Part shown: one piece after another, positions 174 through 63,641 of the stretch | How positions within the stretch are numbered: position 1 is the stretch's first letter | Layout: each line of letters starts with the position of its first letter | Origin: Dehalococcoidales bacterium | Lineage (GTDB): Bacteria > Chloroflexota > Dehalococcoidia > Dehalococcoidales > RBG-16-60-22 | Reading direction: 5' to 3' | Length of the DNA: 63,766 nt | NCBI GenBank assembly: GCA_030603605.1 | Contig: JAUVXN010000001.1 | Coordinates: 1-63,766 of the forward strand | The notes under the pieces: model-generated | Seen by the model: only the letters and a program-made list of their open reading frames with translations | Told to the model about the DNA's origin: nothing | Databases searched by the model: none | Position numbers and translations under genes: made by a program

Positions 174-259
174 GAAGGCGAGCCAGCTATTATAAGGCAA
201 CAGATATAACAAGGCGAGCCAGAACTGGGTAGGCAACAGCAAGAGGAAGGCGAGCCATC
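174..259 (+). repeat. 36-bp bipartite repeat array, block L1
   Basis: Three AGGCGAGCC elements alternate with two AGGCAACAG elements, separated by 8-base variable words (CTATTATA, ATATAACA, AACTGGGT, CAAGAGGA). The last element is degenerate (GAGCCAT) and runs into the terminator. The pair AACTGGGT / CAAGAGGA recurs in block L3 and, reverse-complemented, at about 61810-61840. Confidence 0.9.
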
Positions 260-296
260 GGAGCTGGGCTAGGATTTTACTAGCTCCGCTTTGTTT
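260..296 (+). terminator. Array-type intrinsic terminator, copy 1
   Basis: GGAGCTGGGCTAG pairs imperfectly with CTAGCTCCGC across a 7-base loop and is followed by TTTGTTT. The same hairpin ends every array-bearing transcription unit in the window (2155, 2414, 3072, 61911 and 62417). Confidence 0.7.
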
Positions 297-309
297 ATTG
301 ACCTTAAAA

Positions 310-352
310 TTGACACAGGGGATTGACAAAATGTCAATATATATAGTATTCT
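310..352 (+). promoter_or_regulatory. Promoter region of the subtilase gene
   Basis: Two TTGACA boxes (310-315 and 323-328) precede an AT-rich stretch with TATATATAGTATTCT. The doubled TTGACA recalls the array promoters at 2190 and 61886. Which -35/-10 pair is used cannot be settled by eye. Confidence 0.45.
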
Positions 353-371
353 ACTTGCAAGGAGGTGAATC

Positions 372-2114
372 ATGAACAAGAAATTGCTTCTCATAGCTGC
401 TGTTACCCTCGCTCTCATGGTTAGCCTAATTGGGCCATCGACGGTAGCGGCATCGCCACCAGAAATGGTCAAGGTGCTAATAGGCTTTGACCGGCAGCCA
501 GGTTCAGATGAAGAGGGCATTGTGCGTGGGTCGGGTGGTGCCATCAAGTATACCTACCATCTGGTTCCAGCTATTGCCGCGTCGATTCCTGAGGCAGCCA
601 TTCAGGGACTGTTGGGAAACCCCAGGGTGACTATCATTGAGCCCGACATCGCTGTTTACGCCATTGACGCCGAGCTGGACAATACCTGGGGAGTGCAGCG
701 TATTGGCGCTGGAACAGTCCATGACGACGGCAACAAAGGGGCGGGGGTGAAGATAGCCATTATAGATAGCGGAATTGACCGAAATCACCCTGACCTGGAC
801 GCCAATTACGCTGGTGGCTATGACTTCGTTAATGATGATGCTGACCCCATGGATATTGACGGTCACGGCACCCACGTTGCCGGCACCATTGCCGCCGAGG
901 ACAATGATGTTGGCGTGGTCGGCGTCGCCCCTGAGGCCAGTATCTACGCTCTTAAAGTTCTGGAAGGTGGCGAGGGATACTACAGTGATGTAATTGACGC
1001 CCTCCAGTGGGTCGTAGACAACGAGATTCAGGTCACCAACAATAGCTATGGAAGCTCTGGTGACCCAGGAGAGATAGTCAAAGCGGCTTTCGACACCGCT
1101 TATTACACGCACGGCGTGCTTCATGTAGCCGCCGCTGGTAATAACGGTATCCCCCCGGGGAAGGGTGATAATGTTATCTATCCGGCAAGGTGGGATTCTG
1201 TTATTGCCGTGGCCGCAACTGATGAAAGCGATGACCGGGCAAGGTGGTCCAGCACTGGTCTGGATGTGGAACTGTCGGCCCCTGGAGTAAACATAAATTC
1301 CACTCTGGTTGGTGGTGGCTACGGTTGGGGGAGTGGTACTTCCATGGCTTCACCCCATGTAGCGGGCACGGCAGCTCTGGTTATAACCGCCGGAATCACT
1401 GGCAATGATGCTGTACGCCAGAAGCTGGTAGACACTGCCGACGACCTGGGCGATGCGGGACGAGACTCCAAGTATGGTTACGGTCTGGTTGACGCTGATG
1501 AGGCGGCACCTTCTGGACCGGTCAATAACTATCCTGCGGTTTCCATTACAAGTCCCGCCGATGGGTCTACCTTTGACTCCGGAGCCACCATTCTCTTCGT
1601 GGGAACAGCTAGCGACACCGAGGATGGCGACCTCACAGCCAATTTGAACTGGACATCCAGCAGAGATGGCCAGATAGGTAGCGGAGGCACCTTCTCCGCC
1701 ACCCTCAATGAGGGGCAGCATACTATCACGGCGTCAGTGACCGACTCCGGTGGCAAAACTGGGAGCGACTCCATCGAGATAACTGTGGGAACTCCGAGCG
1801 AGGCGACGACCGTTAGTGTATCCTCAATTATGTATGACACCCAGGGCGGAAGAGATAATGACCGGCACTTGCTTATCACTGTCTCCTTGGTCGATGACTT
1901 GGGCAATCCGGTTGCTGATGCCTCCGTCTCCATAGATGTCTTCCTTGACGAATCCCCCTATAGTTCAGTGACGGGCACGACAGAGACGGGCGGCACTGTC
2001 ACTTTCAAGGCGAACAATGCCCCGTCGGGTACCTACACGACGGAAGTCACCGATGTGACTGCTGTAGGATTGACCTGGAACGGTGTCACTCCAGACAACA
2101 GTTTCGACAAGTAA
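372..2114 (+). CDS. Secreted subtilisin-like serine protease (S8 family) with C-terminal Ig-like domains
   Basis: A 580-residue exported protease. Residues 1-27 form a signal peptide (MNKKLLLIAA start, hydrophobic core, VAA end). Residues 30-100 look like an inhibitor-I9-type propeptide. The catalytic domain (about 105-375) shows all subtilase motifs: Asp132 in IAIIDSGID, His165 in DGHGTHVAGT, the oxyanion Asn257 in AAAGN and Ser324 in GTSMASPHVAG. Two beta-sandwich domains follow: about 385-470 (PKD/Ig-like, ending SDSIEITV) and about 475-575 (big-1-like). No membrane anchor or sorting signal is visible, so it is probably released or bound through the Ig-like modules. The ATG at 372 is chosen because AAGGAGGTGAATC lies just upstream. 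The TAA stop overlaps the first repeat element (TAAGGCAACAG). It likely digests extracellular protein for nutrition. The substrate is unknown. Confidence 0.93.
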   Translation: MNKKLLLIAAVTLALMVSLIGPSTVAASPPEMVKVLIGFDRQPGSDEEGIVRGSGGAIKYTYHLVPAIAASIPEAAIQGLLGNPRVTIIEPDIAVYAIDAELDNTWGVQRIGAGTVHDDGNKGAGVKIAIIDSGIDRNHPDLDANYAGGYDFVNDDADPMDIDGHGTHVAGTIAAEDNDVGVVGVAPEASIYALKVLEGGEGYYSDVIDALQWVVDNEIQVTNNSYGSSGDPGEIVKAAFDTAYYTHGVLHVAAAGNNGIPPGKGDNVIYPARWDSVIAVAATDESDDRARWSSTGLDVELSAPGVNINSTLVGGGYGWGSGTSMASPHVAGTAALVITAGITGNDAVRQKLVDTADDLGDAGRDSKYGYGLVDADEAAPSGPVNNYPAVSITSPADGSTFDSGATILFVGTASDTEDGDLTANLNWTSSRDGQIGSGGTFSATLNEGQHTITASVTDSGGKTGSDSIEITVGTPSEATTVSVSSIMYDTQGGRDNDRHLLITVSLVDDLGNPVADASVSIDVFLDESPYSSVTGTTETGGTVTFKANNAPSGTYTTEVTDVTAVGLTWNGVTPDNSFDK

Positions 2115-2153
2115 GGCAACAGAATATAATAGGCGAGAGGCGAGCCAGAAGTA
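2113..2153 (+). repeat. 36-bp bipartite repeat, block L2 (3' end of the subtilase unit)
   Basis: One AGGCAACAG element begins inside the protease stop codon, followed by a degenerate AGGCGAG and a full AGGCGAGCCAG, then the terminator. It sits in the 3' untranslated region of the protease message. Confidence 0.8.
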
Positions 2154-2154
2154 G

Positions 2155-2190
2155 AGCGGGGCTAGAATTAAGCTAGCTCCGCTTTGCTTT
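2155..2190 (+). terminator. Array-type intrinsic terminator, copy 2
   Basis: AGCGGGGCTAG (2155-2165) pairs with CTAGCTCCGCT (2173-2183) and is followed by TTGCTTTT. It ends the subtilase unit. Confidence 0.8.
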
Positions 2191-2220
2191 TGACACTGTG
2201 GTTGACATTTGGTTAATATT
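2190..2220 (+). promoter_or_regulatory. Array promoter P1
   Basis: TTGACA (2190-2195), a 17-base spacer holding a second TTGACA (2202-2207), then TTAATATT (2213-2220). The layout TTGACACT-N3-GTTGACA-N5-GTTAATATT is shared with the two right-arm promoters and, with one degenerate box, with P2. The transcript would consist only of repeats up to the terminator at 2414. Confidence 0.6.
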
Positions 2221-2228
2221 AAGCGACA

Positions 2229-2411
2229 AGGCGAGCCAGAAAGTATGAGCCAGAAGAGACGAGGCGACAGAACTTACTGTTGCCTCTTAGGGGAGCGAGC
2301 CAGAAGAATAGAGGCAACAGCAAGAGGTAGGCGAGCCAGAATAGTTTAGGCAACAGCAAGAGGAAGGCGAGCCAGTGATAGGGAGGCAACAGAAAGTAGA
2401 AGGCGAGCCAG
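2229..2411 (+). repeat. 36-bp bipartite repeat array, block L3a (array-only unit)
   Basis: Elements in exact 36-bp register start at 2293, 2329, 2365 and 2401, with AGGCAACAG between them. The start of the block is scrambled: AGGCGAGCCAG at 2229, a degenerate GAGCCAG, then AGGCGACAG facing an inverted CTGTTGCCT copy, so one half-unit is inverted and forms a hairpin. No ORF with a ribosome binding site lies between promoter P1 and the terminator at 2414. Confidence 0.9.
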
Positions 2412-2413
2412 CA

Positions 2414-2450
2414 GAGCGGGGCTAGGATTTAACTAGCTCCGCTTTGCTTT
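2414..2450 (+). terminator. Array-type intrinsic terminator, copy 3
   Basis: AGCGGGGCTAG (2414-2424) pairs with CTAGCTCCGCT (2433-2443) and is followed by TTGCTTTT. It closes the array-only unit that begins at P1. Confidence 0.8.
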
Positions 2451-2480
2451 TGACACTGTGGTTGAAAAGATGTTAATATT
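2450..2480 (+). promoter_or_regulatory. Array promoter P2
   Basis: TTGACA (2450-2455), a 17-base spacer with a degenerate second box (GTTGAAA), then TTAATATT (2473-2480). It is followed by the same AAGCGACA start sequence as P1. It faces the longest array. Confidence 0.55.
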
Positions 2481-2513
2481 AAGCGACACCCTGAGGGCAC
2501 AGGACCCGGGGAG

Positions 2514-3064
2514 AGGCGAGCCAGTAAGCGCAAGGCAACAGCGAATAGGAGGCGAGCCAGAAACCATAAGGCAACAGACATAACTAGGCGAGCCAGTTGA
2601 CAAAAGGCAACAGACTGAGGGAGGCGAGCCAGGGGCAACGAGGCAACAGGAGACGAGAGGCGAGCCAGAACTGGGTAGGCAACAGCAAGAGGAAGGCGAG
2701 CCAGAACACAGGAGGCAACAGAGTATAGGAGGCGAGCCAGAGATTGATAGGCAACAGATGGAGCAAGGCGAGCCAGGTGTTGGCAGGCAACAGAAACAGA
2801 GAGGCGAGCCAGCTAATGTAAGGCAACAGATATTGTGAGGCGAGCCAGTCTGAGCTAGGCAACAGTATTGACAAGGCGAGCCAGAAGTCCTGAGGTAACA
2901 GAAGGGTGAAGGCGAGCCATTTTGCTACAGGTAACAGGAGATGGGAGGCGAGCCAGGTGATAGAAGGCAACAGCAAGAGGTAGGCGAGCCAGAATGAAAG
3001 AGGTAACAGGAAGTAAAAGGCGAGCCAGATAACGTTAGGCAACAGGAGACGAGAGGCGAGCCAG
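2514..3064 (+). repeat. 36-bp bipartite repeat array, block L3b (16 units)
   Basis: Sixteen AGGCGAGCCAG elements start at 2514 and then every 36 bases through 3054 with no slip. Fifteen AGGCAACAG (sometimes AGGTAACAG) elements sit midway. The 8-base words between them differ from unit to unit, e.g. TTGACAAA, ACTGAGGG, AGATTGAT. The array lies between promoter P2 and the terminator at 3072 and holds no credible gene, so a repeat-only RNA of about 620 nt is expected. Confidence 0.95.
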
Positions 3065-3071
3065 TAGAACG

Positions 3072-3110
3072 GAGCGGGGCTAGGATTTTACTAGCCCTGC
3101 TCTTTTTTTG
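3072..3110 (+). terminator. Array-type intrinsic terminator, copy 4
   Basis: AGCGGGGCTAG (3073-3083) pairs with CTAGCCCTGCT (3091-3101) and is followed by a run of seven T. The second arm differs from the other copies but keeps most pairing. It ends the left array zone. Confidence 0.85.
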
Positions 3111-3111
3111 T

Positions 3112-3207
3112 AGCTATCTAGCTATGATTTTTTAGCTATCTGGTTATGACCATAAAACCATCATAAAACCATCATAAATTATTTTTTGAATGGGTCATAA
3201 AATGACC
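3112..3207 (+). promoter_or_regulatory. Repeat-rich operator region before the accessory block
   Basis: TAGCTAT occurs three times with one TGGTTATG variant, then ATAAAACCATC twice in tandem. At 3193-3207 lies a perfect palindrome, GGTCAT-AAA-ATGACC. The region sits immediately upstream of the strong promoter at 3217 and looks like repressor or initiator binding sites. Iterons of an origin are an alternative, but no replication initiator gene is nearby. Confidence 0.55.
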
Positions 3208-3252: not shown

Positions 3253-3559
3253 ATAGCTATATTTACAAATTCTACTCTAGTAAGAACAGTATAATAATCG
3301 TATGTTTTCCGAGCCTTGTTTTACCGGAGCGAATAATAATTGAACGGAGGTTATCAAAGCTAATCAGTCCAGCTCCAAAGGGAGTTGATAGCCTAGCAAG
3401 CTATGGCACGTTTACAAACACCGCTTACCGCAACCACATCTATATAGCGGGATATGGCACAAAGCGAATAAGGATTATGCCCGAAAGCTAAACTGCCTAG
3501 TGGTCATATCGCTTTCAGCCTAGCTTGGGGGGGGTTAGACCTTCAGTGAGGTGTTAATT
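3253..3559 (+). other. Long 5' leader, possibly structured
   Basis: About 300 bases without a convincing ORF between the promoter at 3217 and the ATG at 3560. It is rich in short inverted pairs. For example, GAAAGC at 3483 can pair with GCTTTC at 3511, and that same GCTTTC lies in the arm that pairs with 4095-4127. I recognise no known riboswitch or intron. Confidence 0.4.
3511..3541 (+). repeat. Left arm of a long inverted repeat around the first accessory gene
   Basis: GCTTTCAGCCTAG is followed by a run of eight G and GTTAGACC. The reverse complement of 4095-4127 reads GCTTTCAACCTAG, the same eight G and GTTAATAACC, about 26 matches over 31 positions. Confidence 0.75.
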
Positions 3560-4093
3560 ATGGATAACACAGATACCCCCAGTTACATCAAGTCTTTACT
3601 TATCCCCAATGCCAAAAAGCAAGGGCGTAAAGTCTGGTCAGTTGACCTTGAAACCGTCTGGCTACCGTTTTTCACATCTACAAACGTTATGGGCGATACC
3701 GCAATTCCTCTTGATGCACTCGGTTGCCCGATACGCTTGGCTTACAATAAGGATGGTAGCGTCAAGTTTGGCAGTAGTGGCAGACCTGTCACCAAAGTAG
3801 CGAAAGACCTATCAATGCACGTTGCTATGGTAAGGGAAAACTTTACTGCTAACCTTATGCAGTATGCTGGTGTGGTAGCCAATGAGAAGCCACAGGACTA
3901 CTCCAAGATGGTCAGGCAAGCCAATACCGCAGGCTTGCCGATTAGCCAGCACGATAAGGCTGAACTTGACAACGCTATCCAGTTGCAGATAGCCGCCGCT
4001 TTGAGAGAAGCGGAAGCCAAGACGGAAGCCCAGACGGAAGCCAAGACGGAAGCCCCAACGGAAGCCAAGACAAAGGAGACTGTCAAAGTCTAA
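3560..4093 (+). CDS. Hypothetical protein with an EAKTEA-repeat tail
   Basis: 177 residues beginning MDNTDTPSYIKSLLIPNAKK. ATG 3560 is chosen over GTG 3551 because GAGGTG ends about 7 bases before it. The body (1-150) is mixed alpha/beta by look and ends with a helix rich in Gln and Ala. The last 25 residues are tandem copies of EAKTEA-type hexapeptides encoded by a GACGGAAGCC DNA repeat. The next gene shares a KDGSVK/RDGSVK stretch, so the two may be distant relatives. The gene is enclosed by the 31-33 bp inverted repeat. Function unknown. Confidence 0.75.
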   Translation: MDNTDTPSYIKSLLIPNAKKQGRKVWSVDLETVWLPFFTSTNVMGDTAIPLDALGCPIRLAYNKDGSVKFGSSGRPVTKVAKDLSMHVAMVRENFTANLMQYAGVVANEKPQDYSKMVRQANTAGLPISQHDKAELDNAIQLQIAAALREAEAKTEAQTEAKTEAPTEAKTKETVKV

Positions 4094-4094
4094 A

Positions 4095-4127
4095 GGTTAT
4101 TAACCCCCCCCGAACTAGGTTGAAAGC
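4095..4127 (+). repeat. Right arm of the long inverted repeat
   Basis: It begins one base after the stop codon of the 3560-4093 gene: GGTTATTAA, eight C, GAACTAGG, TTGAAAGC. It pairs with 3511-3541 as described there. Confidence 0.75.
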
Positions 4128-9959: not shown

Positions 9960-10665
9960 CCGGGTCGAAGCTCATAACCTGTTAAGACAGCACTTTTACG
10001 CGGCTGATGTGGGTAGATTCAAGTCCCAAGCCCTCGCTGAACGCCTGGCACGCCAGTTCGGTCGGCGTATCGGTTACAGCGTCTATCCGTATGATGCTGA
10101 ACTTATCGGTGAGGACTGTGGCTCTGGATTTTACAAGCGGATGGCTCAGGGTATCATCATCGGCTGTGTGGACAATGCCGAAGCCCGACGATCCATAGCC
10201 CATGATTTCCAGTATGGCAACTGGTGGCTTGATGCCGGCAATGGCCATTCCTCCGGGCAAGTCCTTTTCGGTAATTCCCAGAACCTGGAACAACTGCAGT
10301 GGTCGTTTGAAGAGAACTCTCAGCAGGTGGTCAGGCTGCCGCTGCCGTCCATGCAGCTCCCATCTCTTCTGGCACCTCCGACTGTGCCAGCCACGATTCC
10401 AGGAGACTGTGCTGAGGCGGTGGCTGCCGAGGAGCAGAACCCGGTGATCAACCAGGCCATGGCCATGCTGGTGCTGCAGTTTATGTACCGGCTCTTGAAT
10501 AATAAGCTTACCTGGATGGGAGCTTATATTGACTTGGAAGCCGGCACTCTGCAGCAGGTGCCTGCTGAACCCCAGACGGTAGCTCGAATGTTAGGGGTGA
10601 GGGTCGACACCTTGATCAGGAAAGGTTGCTCAATAGGCAACAGGTACTCATTGAGAGGGAGGTAA
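9814..10665 (+). CDS. PRTRC system ThiF/E1-like adenylating enzyme
   Basis: 283 residues. A GTG at 9814 with GAGGAGGGG upstream gives MTYIVAPRHMVSEWRILVVG. The nucleotide-binding motif GCGGTGGYVAEGL (about residues 18-30) is followed by an acidic strand end (VLIDHDRVEAHNLLRQ), as in E1/MoeB/ThiF enzymes that adenylate a C-terminal glycine. The segment IPGDCAEAVAAEEQNPVINQ (about 193-212) holds the likely catalytic Cys and the family Q-N-P motif. With proteins A, B and C it completes an E1-E2-modifier-peptidase-like set. The target is unknown. Confidence 0.9.
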   Translation: MTYIVAPRHMVSEWRILVVGCGGTGGYVAEGLCRLLAGSNIPLVLIDHDRVEAHNLLRQHFYAADVGRFKSQALAERLARQFGRRIGYSVYPYDAELIGEDCGSGFYKRMAQGIIIGCVDNAEARRSIAHDFQYGNWWLDAGNGHSSGQVLFGNSQNLEQLQWSFEENSQQVVRLPLPSMQLPSLLAPPTVPATIPGDCAEAVAAEEQNPVINQAMAMLVLQFMYRLLNNKLTWMGAYIDLEAGTLQQVPAEPQTVARMLGVRVDTLIRKGCSIGNRYSLRGR

Positions 10666-39872: not shown

Positions 39873-40472
39873 CTACCTCATGCCCGGTGGTTGACCACTC
39901 TCACCTTTTTTGTGAGCCGCTTGGATAGCAGCGCTCTGCGTGGCCCGATACTCAGGGTCTTGCCATCGCCTCCTTTGATCCGTGCTCATCTTGGCCCGAT
40001 ACTCAGGGTCTTGCCATCGTTTCTTTAAAGCAGCAGACAATTTTGCCCTGCTCTCATCAGACGGGCTGGGGCGTTTGTGAGCCGCGCTCTGCTTGGTCCG
40101 ATACTCAGGGTCTTGCCAGTGCCTTATTTCAGCCGTGCTCATCTTGGCCCGATACTCAGGGTCTTGCCACCGCCTCCTTTGAGCCGCGCTCTGCATGACC
40201 CGATACTCAGGGTCTTGCCACAGCCTGCTTTGAGCAGCGCTCAGCTTGGCCCGATACTCAGGGTTTCGCCGATAATTTTCTAGCTGTGTTTCAGCTAGAA
40301 AGGACACGGATTGCCTGGCAACTGCGCAGTATCCTTTAACCTGGCCGTCACTAGCTACAGCTTCAACCGGCTGTCCGCAAGCAGGGCAGATGACCCAGAC
40401 ACGCTCCGTCTTCACCACTACTAATCCTACACGATTGAGCACGACCAACTGGGCCTCCTTCATCCAAGCCAA
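39873..40472 (-). CDS. Short-repeat protein (RWQDPEYRAKMS repeats) with an N-terminal zinc ribbon
   Basis: 199 residues from ATG 40472, overlapping the end of system E dctM by 13 bases. Residues 25-50 hold CPACGQPV and a later Cys, a likely zinc knuckle. From about residue 65 there are roughly eight copies of a 17-residue unit based on RWQDPEYRAKxSAAQ. Such units occur as NUMOD3-like DNA-binding repeats next to HNH or GIY-YIG homing nucleases, but no nuclease domain is present here. The DNA is a matching 51-base repeat. Probably a DNA-binding remnant of a mobile endonuclease, or a free-standing relative. Confidence 0.7.
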   Translation of the reverse strand: MAWMKEAQLVVLNRVGLVVVKTERVWVICPACGQPVEAVASDGQVKGYCAVARQSVSFLAETQLENYRRNPEYRAKLSAAQSRLWQDPEYRVMQSAAQRRRWQDPEYRAKMSTAEIRHWQDPEYRTKQSAAHKRPSPSDESRAKLSAALKKRWQDPEYRAKMSTDQRRRWQDPEYRATQSAAIQAAHKKGESGQPPGMR

Positions 40473-57506: not shown

Positions 57507-57845
57507 ATGATGAGAGTAGCCGTAATAACACGTTTCCCAAACACCGCTGTCACCGCAGCGGTGTTTGTATGCCTCAACATGGCCGACGCCTGGCTGACAA
57601 CCCAGCTGCTGGCTCGCGACGGCATCGAGGCTTTCTGGTGGTCCTCGCACTATAACAGCAATATGATTATCAAAGGGATCCTCGCCTTATTGGTAGCCAT
57701 TGTTCTCACTCGTCTGGGCAAAGCCAGGCTACTGAAGTGGCTCAATATAGCTATGCTGTTCGTGGTCTTATCCAATGGGATCTGTTTTTCAGGATACTTG
57801 GGCTCATTGTTCTACTGGCAAACCCAGATAGCCACCTATCCTTAG
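57507..57845 (+). CDS. Small membrane protein (DUF5658-like)
   Basis: 112 residues, about three membrane helices (PNTAVTAAVFVCLNMADAWL, IIKGILALLVAIVLT, IAMLFVVLSNGICFSGYLGS). N-terminal helix with ADAWLTTQLL and a later SNMIIKG fits the DUF5658 look (three-helix bacterial membrane proteins), by impression. It sits inside the pilin cluster behind structured element E. GAGGATAAC precedes ATG 57507. Confidence 0.6.
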   Translation: MMRVAVITRFPNTAVTAAVFVCLNMADAWLTTQLLARDGIEAFWWSSHYNSNMIIKGILALLVAIVLTRLGKARLLKWLNIAMLFVVLSNGICFSGYLGSLFYWQTQIATYP

Positions 57846-59694: not shown

Positions 59695-59979
59695 ATGATA
59701 CGTTATATTGTGGTAATCACCGTCATCATCCTGATTGTAACCGCTGTCGTGGTGTGTGTTTACTTTTTCGCTAGATTCTTGGATGGATTCAGCCCCCTTC
59801 AATTCCAGGAATATCACGTTTCCCCAACACCGCTCTGCCAGGGGAAACAGGCATCACTATGTTGCCTCTTATTCTCTGGCTCGCCTATTACCGTCTGTTG
59901 CCTACTCTTCTCTGGCTCGCCTCCTGTACTCTGTTGCCTCTTTATTCCTGGCTCGCCTAGTTATTGCTGTTGCCTTTGA
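59695..59979 (+). other. Short membrane ORF running into antisense array (probably broken)
   Basis: ATG 59695 gives a plausible single membrane helix (RYIVVITVIILIVTAVVVCV) for about 40 residues. It then runs through fragment 59813-59850 and into the antisense of the repeat array, where any frame can stay open. The first part could be the start of a truncated gene. Ribosome binding is weak (GGGAA). The 59615-59860 gap otherwise holds a hairpin, GTTTCCCC…GGGGAAAC, at 59817-59845. Confidence 0.3.
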
Positions 59980-60160
59980 CCTCCTGGCTCGCCTACCTCT
60001 TGCTGTTGCCTCTATTCTTCTGGCTCGCCTTTCTTGTCCTGTTGCCTTCTACCACCTGGCTCGCCTACCAATTTCTGTCGCCTATTATGTGCTGGCTCGC
60101 CTTTTACATACTGTTGCCTCACAAAGCCTGGCTCGCCTTATAATAGCTGTTGCCTACTGA
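59853..60160 (-). repeat. 36-bp bipartite repeat array, block R1
   Basis: Eight CTGGCTCGCCT elements alternate with CTGTTGCCT elements (one CTGTCGCCT), i.e. the array on the minus strand. It directly follows the stop of the phosphatase gene. Contains word pairs also found in R2 (GGTGGTAG) and in L3a/R2/R3 (AAGAATAG with CAAGAGGT). Confidence 0.92.
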
Positions 60161-61524: not shown

Positions 61525-61547
61525 ATATTTATCAGTTGCCTTTTGTC

Positions 61548-61885
61548 CCTAGCTCGCCTTATAATTTGCTGTTGCCTTATGAAGTCTGGCTCACCTTCAC
61601 TATTCTGTTACCTACCGACCCCTGGCTCGCCTGCTTACTTCTGTTGCCTTATATACCATGGCTCGCCTACCTCTTGCTGTTGCCTCTATTCTTCTGGCTC
61701 GCCTCCCTTCTTCTGTTACCTAAACTGGCCTGGCTCGCCTACTATATACTGTTGCCTTCTACCACCTGGCTCGCCTTTCATTATCTGTTGCCTGGCAGCT
61801 CCTGGCTCGCCTTCCTCTTGCTGTTGCCTACCCAGTTCTGGCTCGCCTGTTTTCTTCTGTTGCCTTATGTCACCTGGCTCGCCAA
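61548..61885 (-). repeat. 36-bp bipartite repeat array, block R2 (5' region of the phosphatase unit)
   Basis: Ten CTGGCTCGCCT elements (two degenerate) at 36-bp spacing (e.g. starts at 61624, 61660, 61696, 61732). The array fills the space between the promoter at 61886-61914 and the phosphatase start. Confidence 0.93.
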
Positions 61886-61948: not shown

Positions 61949-61989
61949 TGCGCCTCTCTTCTCCTGCCTGAGAATGGCTGGCTCGCCTT

Positions 61990-62118
61990 TCACTTGTTGC
62001 CTTTCCTGCGAATGAGGTAAGCAATCACGAACAAGACTCCTAAGAAAAATACAACCACAAGTACGCCTAGCAGGATTTCAGTTGGTGAATTCAGTAAGGC
62101 CAGTGAGTTGAATGGCAT
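61990..62118 (-). CDS. Small single-span membrane protein
   Basis: 42 residues from ATG 62118 behind GAGGAGGAGTTT: MPFNSLALLNSPTEILLGVL at the start, one membrane helix, and a basic YLIRRKGNK end. The last codons (AGGCAACAAG) are part of a repeat element. It follows tRNA-Met in the same unit. Unknown function. Confidence 0.65.
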   Translation of the reverse strand: MPFNSLALLNSPTEILLGVLVVVFFLGVLFVIAYLIRRKGNK

Positions 62119-62137: not shown

Positions 62138-62180
62138 GAGTCCTGGCTCGCCTCCTCTTCTCTGTTGCTTTGTTACACCA
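62138..62180 (-). repeat. 36-bp bipartite repeat elements between tRNA-Met and the small membrane gene
   Basis: CTGGCTCGCCT, CTGTTGCTT (degenerate) and ACTCGCCT elements in minus orientation. Confidence 0.75.
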
Positions 62181-62279: not shown

Positions 62280-62303
62280 CCTGGCTCGCCTTACTAATCC
62301 TGT
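62280..62303 (-). repeat. 36-bp bipartite repeat elements between tRNA-Arg and tRNA-Met
   Basis: CCTGGCTCGCCT followed by CCTGTTGG, a partial second element that merges with the CCA end of tRNA-Arg. Confidence 0.75.
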
Positions 62304-62379: not shown

Positions 62380-62391
62380 CTGGCTCGCCAA

Positions 62392-62420
62392 TATTAACAT
62401 TTTGTCAACTCTAGTGTCAA
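62392..62420 (-). promoter_or_regulatory. Array promoter P4
   Basis: Identical to P3. The unit it drives is: one array element, tRNA-Arg, tRNA-Met, small membrane gene, terminator. Confidence 0.6.
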
Positions 62421-62483: not shown

Positions 62484-62606
62484 CTGGCTCGCCTACCTCT
62501 TGCTGTTGCCTCTATTCTTCTGGCTCGCCTCACTATTTCTGTTGCCTTTTTATCTCTGGCTCGCCTCACAATATCTGTTGCCTTACATTAGCTGGCTCGC
62601 CTCAGA
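62484..62606 (-). repeat. 36-bp bipartite repeat array, block R3
   Basis: Four CTGGCTCGCCT and three CTGTTGCCT elements, directly downstream (minus sense) of the 62616 stop and ending at the terminator copy 6. It contains the AAGAATAG-CAAGAGGT word pair of L3a, R1 and R2. Confidence 0.9.
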
Positions 62607-62935: not shown

Positions 62936-62967
62936 ACTGGCTCGCCTCTCTAATTCTGTTGCATTGT
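62936..62967 (-). repeat. 36-bp bipartite repeat elements between 62968 and 62616 genes
   Basis: CTGGCTCGCCT and CTGTTGCAT elements in minus orientation. Confidence 0.75.
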
Positions 62968-63306: not shown

Positions 63307-63333
63307 CTTATCTGCTTTCCTCCTTATCCACTC

Positions 63334-63343
63334 TGGCTCGCCA
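63334..63343 (-). repeat. Single array element between tRNA-Ile and the 62968 gene
   Basis: CTGGCTCGCC only, without the second half-unit. Confidence 0.7.
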
Positions 63344-63436: not shown

Positions 63437-63641
63437 GTCGCCTTCCTTATTCTGTTGCCTTATTACGCCTGGCTCGCCTTCAATGGCCTGTTGCCTCAGC
63501 AATTCTGGCTCGCCTACCTAGACCTGTTGCCTTATCACCTCTGGCTCGCCTTTACCGCTCTGTTGCCTGCTTTTTCCTGGCTCGCCTTCAATGGCCTGTT
63601 GCCTCAGCAATTCTGGCTCGCCTCCCTGGCTCGCCTTTTAC
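63437..63641 (-). repeat. 36-bp bipartite repeat array, block R4
   Basis: About six CTGGCTCGCCT elements. A segment of about 46 bases beginning at 63471 is repeated at 63579 (108 bases, exactly three units). Confidence 0.92.

Follow-up and report, generated by a model that had tools for sequence, protein, structure and literature searches.

The DNA considered here is a 63,766-nucleotide stretch from a Dehalococcoidales bacterium (contig JAUVXN010000001.1 of assembly GCA_030603605.1, positions 1 to 63,766; hereafter the window). Between the genes at both of its ends, which include a subtilase gene, a phosphoesterase gene and three tRNAs, lie ladders (176-3064 on the + strand and 63636-59859 on the - strand) in which two fixed elements, E1 (AGGCGAGCCAG) and E2 (AGGCAACAG), alternate with variable 8-base words between them. 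The 8 bases after E1 are called here the A word and the 8 bases after E2 the B word, so that the unit E1-A8-E2-B8 measures 36 bases. Both elements consist of AGGC, four or two bases, and CAG. E1 is an imperfect DNA palindrome (GGC-GA-GCC), whereas E2 is non-palindromic.

The original prediction, made from the letters of this DNA, had described such a 36-bp design as one array at 174-3064. The design is real and extends further than first noted. E1-N8-E2, with up to three mismatches in its 20 fixed bases, is found 48 times in the window and 0 times in 100 dinucleotide shuffles. When E1 is allowed up to two mismatches and E2 up to one (one overlapping false E1 being removed), 90 gaps between alternating elements over both ends are exactly 8 bases, 45 of each kind. 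Eight other gaps of at most 30 bases were counted (2, 5, 7, 9, 12, 15, 22 and 22); those of 5, 7 and 9 look like small slips. The unbroken register noted for 2514-3064 was borne out, as 30/30 gaps between its 31 elements (16 E1, 15 E2) are exactly 8; 27 of these elements are exact, with one substitution each at 2893, 2910, 2929 and 3001. What did not hold is the single array: 174-3064 contains three ladders (176-258, 2293-2411, 2514-3064) and single elements, broken up by the subtilase gene (372-2114), terminators and promoters. The - strand ladders were absent from the prediction. The two ends are laid out as follows.

176..258, + strand: ladder of 5 elements, just 3' of a partial open reading frame (ORF) at the edge of the contig (its stop called by us at 170-172), with a terminator after it.
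2114..2148, + strand: E2 sharing the final base of the subtilase stop codon, plus E1; a terminator-like hairpin is next.
2190..2219, + strand: promoter-like TTGACA-18-TAATAT.
2229..2411, + strand: E1, a hairpin (2262-2285: near-E2 and inverted E2) and a ladder of 7 elements (2293-2411), whose first E1 has 2 mismatches and whose last element is E1.
2450..2479, + strand: promoter-like TTGACA-18-TAATAT, 5' of the longest ladder.
2514..3064, + strand: the longest ladder, gene-free.
3071..3103, + strand: intrinsic-terminator-like hairpin of 13 pairs with a T run, at the end of the predicted noncoding transcript.
59859..60155, - strand: ladder of 17 elements, 3' of the phosphoesterase gene.
61533..61884, - strand: ladder flanked by a promoter-like site and the phosphoesterase gene, with 18 elements strictly in register (61884-61569) and two further ones after gaps of 9 and 7.
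61978..62002, - strand: near-E2 where a small ORF ends, a gap of 5, and E1; a terminator/promoter module is next.
62143..62170, - strand: near-E2, 8 bases and E1, between tRNA-Met and a small ORF.
62281..62291, - strand: E1 between tRNA-Arg and tRNA-Met.
62380..62390, - strand: E1 (TGGCGAGCCAG), immediately 3' of a -10-like hexamer and immediately 5' of tRNA-Arg.
62484..62602, - strand: ladder of 7 elements, 5' of a terminator/promoter module.
62937..62964, - strand: near-E2, 8 bases and E1, in the short space separating two ORFs.
63333..63343, - strand: E1 3' of tRNA-Ile.
63452..63636, - strand: ladder of 10 elements (63623-63452) with one extra E1 ahead (gap of 2), 5' of tRNA-Ile.

All 10/10 intergenic gaps laid out in the two ends hold at least one element, with gene limits that are partly our own calls from ORF lists and sequence and with the gap after the subtilase gene counted to 3119 only. 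Even short gaps carry single elements, such as the 33 bases separating tRNA-Arg from tRNA-Met, the 37 bases separating two ORFs and the 52 bases after tRNA-Ile. This presence in every examined gap, tRNA surroundings included, had escaped the first reading. Counting E1 with at most one mismatch and exact E2, 98/99 elements in the ladder-bearing ends are co-oriented with the flanking genes; the only antisense element is the E2 at 2277-2285, which forms the second arm of a hairpin with a near-E2 first arm. The central ~56 kb holds no ladder and one isolated E2, at 10635. The number of E1 per ladder (3, 4, 16, 5, 4, 10, 8) is even in 5/7 cases, a post hoc count too weak for use.

The ladders appear to be framed by transcription signals. 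Predicted promoters of the form TTGACA-18-TAATAT start at 2190 and 2450 on the + strand and at 62420 and 61914 on the - strand, and adjoin ladders or tRNAs; in two scanned regions, promoter-like sites exceed expectation (8 versus 2.8 and 11 versus 4.6). Terminator-like sites are not above chance in the two scanned regions (3 versus 3.0 and 3 versus 4.3). A repeated hairpin (about AGCGGGGCTAGGATTTTACTAGCTCCGCT) can be aligned at six places, with E1 (once as a CCAT form) preceding it in 6/6 and a TTGACA-type promoter sequence next in 5/6. The case for terminators rests on this repeated sequence and its position, since the scan recovered only 4/6 of these hairpins besides failing to exceed chance. 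A ~115-bp segment of E1, terminator-like hairpin, promoter-like site and E1 occurs twice (62494-62380 and 61988-61874), before tRNA-Arg and before the phosphoesterase ladder, and its two copies agree in the alignment. From its sequence, 2450-3103 reads as promoter, ladder and terminator without a gene, which predicts a noncoding transcript of ~620 bases. As a separate observation, a second, TTGAC-N5-GTTAA-like dyad lies at the promoter-like sites 323-352, 2190-2219, 2450-2479, 61914-61885 and 62420-62391; it is perfect (TTGAC-N5-GTCAA) upstream of the subtilase gene, one copy starts with TTGAA, and it looks like a shared operator.

The words themselves vary, as originally claimed, but they are not entirely free. 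They are purine-rich (64% in A words, 73% in B words, copies included) and C-poor (11% and 9%), and some recur across ladders as exact neighbouring pairs. Among A-word pairs, 12 are identical (0.0 expected), 2 stand at one difference (0.9 expected) and 6 at two (7.9 expected); among B-word pairs, 19 are identical (0.2 expected) and 21 stand at one difference (3.5 expected), 20/21 of the latter opposing CAAGAGGA to CAAGAGGT. Words are thus mostly identical or unrelated, and non-copy words are no more alike than column-shuffled words. A matching pair of A words is followed by matching B words in 11/12 cases and preceded by them in 0/7 (5 untestable); a matching pair of B words is preceded by matching A words in 11/19 cases and followed by them in 0/11 (8 untestable). 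Shared neighbours thus occur only as E1-A-E2-B-E1 cassettes that switch partners at E1, a recurrence not seen in the first reading. The cassette AAGAATAG/CAAGAGGT occurs four times, AACTGGGT/CAAGAGGA three times and two others twice; since all cassette counts come from these four families and are not independent, their effective number is small. One word, CTATTATA, is present in both A and B contexts.

That spacing and elements are kept while the words are randomised, in our view the strongest observation, implies either that the geometry is selected or that words are made at a fixed length; drift alone would be odd, because so many substitutions come with only three slips. Hairpins formed by adjacent words were considered and rejected, as their complementary runs are not longer than in the control (mean 1.62 versus 1.75 ± 0.10). 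Shine-Dalgarno decoys were likewise set aside: against word-shuffled ladders, GGAGG (9 versus 7.8 ± 2.5), AGGAG (9 versus 7.1 ± 2.5) and AGGA (17 versus 19.0 ± 3.8) are not clearly enriched, and there is at most a slight excess of GAGG (38 versus 30.5 ± 4.2).

Besides being a possible protein site, E1 may act as a pairing element, which the first reading had not considered. It contains GGCGAGCC and is predicted to self-pair via six G-C pairs flanking two G-A mismatches in tandem, with an RNA self-duplex of -13.0 kcal/mol that 84/2000 permutations equal. In nuclear magnetic resonance work, GGCGAGCC serves as a model octamer with tandem G-A pairing; no paper on this was among the literature matches listed. 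In the partition function of 2514-3064, the summed pairing probability of neighbouring E1s is 3.47 of a maximum of 8. When stretches running from one E1 to another are cut out, their minimum free energy folds enclose the tRNA by E1:E1 pairing for 3/3 tRNAs; for tRNA-Arg, this amounts to 6.8 expected E1:E1 pairs, equalled by 12/200 permutations, and a longer stretch retains the closure. Better folding than in controls with shuffled words is predicted for two of six ladder stretches, namely 2229-2411, which holds the E2 hairpin (-50.9 versus -40.8 ± 3.2), and 62602-62484 (-27.7 versus -24.2 ± 1.9). The reverse strand is less stable than the sense strand in 6/6 stretches, as expected because G-U pairs count.

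The original prediction had proposed a spacing-aware search and named the same design in related genomes, with different words, as support; in 84,980 species genomes (257 billion bases, metagenome contigs not being searched), the exact 20-base E1-N8-E2 has one match, in a Nitrosomonadales metagenome-assembled genome (MAG). This match is isolated and lacks E1 at the next step, and by our arithmetic about 0.5 would be expected by chance. IMG/VR contains 0 matches to the 20-base pattern, 21 stretches with one match each to a 16-base form, at least 120 stretches with E1-N28-E1 and 1 with E2-N8-E1; among the 143 loci listed, none shows E1-N8-E2 (up to two mismatches in E2) followed one step on by E1 (up to three mismatches). 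The terminator sequence, used as a scan pattern, gave 0 matches. Searches of phages and plasmids returned 17 and 3 records, each covering 4-5% of the query with E ≥ 2. A protein scan of IMG/VR yielded one partial beta-clamp relative of 39 residues and no relative of the phosphoesterase or the subtilase. Among the 120 subtilase relatives listed, the first four that bear an organism name are MAGs of Dehalococcoidia, Dehalococcoidia, Chloroflexi and Dehalococcoidales, other phyla standing lower. For a TRAP permease, the first organism-named relative is a Dehalococcoidales MAG (61% identity), with Desulfobacterales and others below. Both lists suggest a host that probably belongs to the Dehalococcoidia.

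The claim that no described family has this design agrees with our searches, as none was found in Rfam, in the phage and plasmid collections, or in the titles and abstract openings of open-licence PMC articles among the matches listed. Against Rfam 15 (4227 models), only the three tRNAs of the window reach the gathering score; the seven weak matches in 2100-3120 are all far under their cut-offs. The CsrC model scores no more than 10.9 bits, its cut-off being 61. CsrB, CsrC and RsmZ are noncoding RNAs that act as protein sponges through many copies of a short protein-binding motif. The ladder resembles them in its many short-motif copies in a putative noncoding RNA, but E1 and E2 lack GGA. REP/BIME elements associated with RAYT are, like the ladders, extragenic, regularly spaced, dyad-bearing and clustered, while BIMEs alternate in orientation (PMC2817692). 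In a ladder the elements face one way, and E1 alternates with a second, non-palindromic element; with almost all elements co-oriented and no alternating palindromic units, the claimed difference from REP/BIME holds for orientation and palindromy.

The nearest published case that we found is that of the TAACTGA heptamer, which forms direct repeats in marine Beggiatoaceae, Cyanobacteria and some Bacteroidetes (MacGregor 2015, PMC4679880). These repeats are described as intergenic, with many sets per genome and no pattern in the function of downstream genes, all of which recalls the ladders, and are proposed as sites for a post-transcriptional regulator of the S1, Csp or Csr type (PMC4679880). 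They consist of a single, directly repeated heptamer, mostly no more than several bases upstream of start codons (PMC4679880), whereas the ladders have two elements and variable 8-base words and stand before and after genes and around tRNAs. Assignment to TAACTGA-type repeats was rejected, since the ladders are made of two other elements, set 8 variable bases apart in 90 gaps. The BOX, RUP and SPRITE repeats of Streptococcus pneumoniae are similarly small and interspersed, some being expressed, and are nearly confined to a narrow lineage; they are described as extensively structured (PMC3049150), whereas most ladders do not exceed the fold controls and the words inside their units are not conserved. 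Finally, Borg tandem repeats are pervasive, A-rich, partly intergenic and suggested to give regulatory RNAs, and their repeat regions are described as arising independently, on extrachromosomal elements (PMC9879509); here, one shared pair of elements recurs in many gaps, and the interior of the unit does not repeat. Altogether, the two-element ladder looks like an undescribed kind of repeat.

The ladder-free centre (3120-59620, ~56 kb) is possibly an inserted island. Its + strand part encodes Prok-E2_D, Prok-JAB, ThiF, GP88 and beta-clamp-like proteins, a gene set reminiscent of PRTRC-type mobile elements, and its - strand part carries TRAP transporter genes. The latter are repeated within 24589-46838, with one DctM and two DctP recognised by Pfam and two further DctM proteins (P0040, P0052) that are 61% identical to the first. 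A 27-base inverted repeat (89%; 3511-3537 and 4101-4127) surrounds the ORF 3551-4093. A 25-base direct repeat (92%; 57524-57548 and 59810-59834) lies close to where the ladder-free stretch ends on the right, its first copy overlapping an inverted repeat, so that it could be a terminator or an insertion edge. A 51-bp tandem repeat of 6.6 copies (39927-40264) falls within the - strand ORF 39873-40472 and encodes a repetitive protein.

The reading that we favour, although tentatively, is that of a lineage-specific transcribed ladder working in RNA, with E1 as a clamp and with E2 and the words shown to a putative RNA-binding factor. Sense orientation, the promoter/terminator framing and the self-complementarity of E1 are the reasons for preferring a role in RNA. 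E1-A8-E2-B8 units would sit, in sense orientation, in untranslated and intercistronic parts of transcripts. Neighbouring E1s could pair and close a loop of ~28 bases displaying E2 and two purine-rich words, while E1s on either side of a tRNA could close the tRNA precursor. We infer that a factor may read E2 and/or the E1 clamp at a fixed geometry, and that it would act on end formation, stability or grouping of the ladder-bearing RNAs. The gene-free ladder 2514-3064 would then correspond to a dedicated noncoding RNA that may serve as a sponge for this factor. In this account, sequence, spacing, placement, orientation and the sharing of cassettes are observed; the promoters, terminators and pairing are predictions, and transcription, factor and function are inferences. 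The originally proposed ladder of recognition sites for an RNA- or DNA-binding protein is compatible with this account: the strictly spaced ladder is real and a protein-site reading fits it, but that reading is unproven, and between the two polymers RNA is favoured here.

Several points speak against this RNA account. Co-orientation amounts to about two independent blocks, because genes within each end share one direction. E1 immediately follows the -10-like hexamer at 62390 and 61884, which would place the start of a transcript inside E1. The GGC-GA-GCC dyad would suit a DNA-binding dimer equally well, and a simple clamp would not need gaps of exactly 8. Cutting stretches at E1 favours E1:E1 closure in the folds. 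Strong overall RNA structure was rejected, since 4/6 ladder stretches fold no better than word-shuffled controls; 2514-3064 reaches -136.5 versus -137.8 ± 5.7 with words shuffled (-126.4 ± 6.8 with all letters shuffled), and 60155-59859 even folds worse (-57.8 versus -62.6 ± 3.8 with words shuffled). A much more ambitious version, in which nearly every transcript, pre-tRNAs included, would carry E1 clamps and E2 loops at 17/19-base steps as a new RNA-organising code of this uncultured lineage, and in which a dedicated enzyme would let the ladders grow by E1-bounded insertion of single 36-base cassettes, new words being made at a fixed length of 8, seems to us quite improbable.

The main rival is a family of noncoding repeats that multiplies as 36-bp E1-bounded cassettes are copied between ladders, whether by slippage, by recombination or by an enzyme of a mobile element working at E1, and that is tolerated between genes without any host function, as argued for BOX/RUP/SPRITE. 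Identical cassettes at several places and the duplicated ~115-bp segment are what such copying would leave, and the pneumococcal repeats were judged parasitic from their distribution (PMC3049150). It is harder to see why the elements would stay near-invariant and the gaps at 8 while the words are randomised. Drift should leave intermediates, and A words have no clear excess at one or two differences; B words do show one at a single difference, mostly from one word pair, and the four cassette families limit the weight of the counts. We consider this explanation possible but doubtful. Next comes a ladder of sites for a DNA-binding protein of the nucleoid or boundary type, in which E1 would be the dyad site and E2 a variant site; we consider it unlikely. 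The imperfect palindrome of E1, the AGGC...CAG form common to both elements and their intergenic position adjoining promoter-like sites would agree with it, but with steps of 17/19 bp, and 36 bp or 3.4 turns per unit, the sites do not keep to one face of B-DNA, a DNA site has no need of co-orientation with genes, and the central 56 kb is devoid of ladders.

Translation of the repeat is very improbable. An antisense open frame of 152 residues (3042-2584, - strand) would encode 12-residue repeats (WLA-x3-LLP-x3), and that one of six frames holds 4 stops versus 10.2 in word-shuffled ladders, with 2% of shuffles as low. With all six frames taken into account this depletion is weak, and antisense stops are rare anyway because the sense words are poor in C and T; the frame runs opposite to the flanking genes and has no homolog at E ≤ 0.001 among 2609 candidates. 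In sense, the frames of the seven ladders hold 31, 23 and 40 stops, and protein coding was rejected. Least credible of all is that the ladders are a CRISPR-like array or arose in assembly. Fixed elements with changing words recall the former, and the proximity of both contig ends to ladders is what would be expected where assemblers break at repeats. CRISPR arrays, with repeats of ~20-50 bases and unique spacers of similar length, are nevertheless far above the 9- and 11-base elements and 8-base words seen here, which upholds the original distinction from CRISPR. Words also recur between ladders, and no cas family was matched by Pfam among 30 window proteins, chosen mostly by length and not comprising every ORF. 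As for an artefact, genes, tRNAs and terminators interrupt the ladders in an order that makes biological sense.

To conclude, if the ladders are read in RNA, as we tentatively prefer, they would reveal, in a poorly known lineage, a broad post-transcriptional system with a code of strict geometry. If they are instead without host function, the combination of near-invariant elements, randomised words and E1-bounded cassettes would represent a mode of spreading unlike slippage followed by drift.

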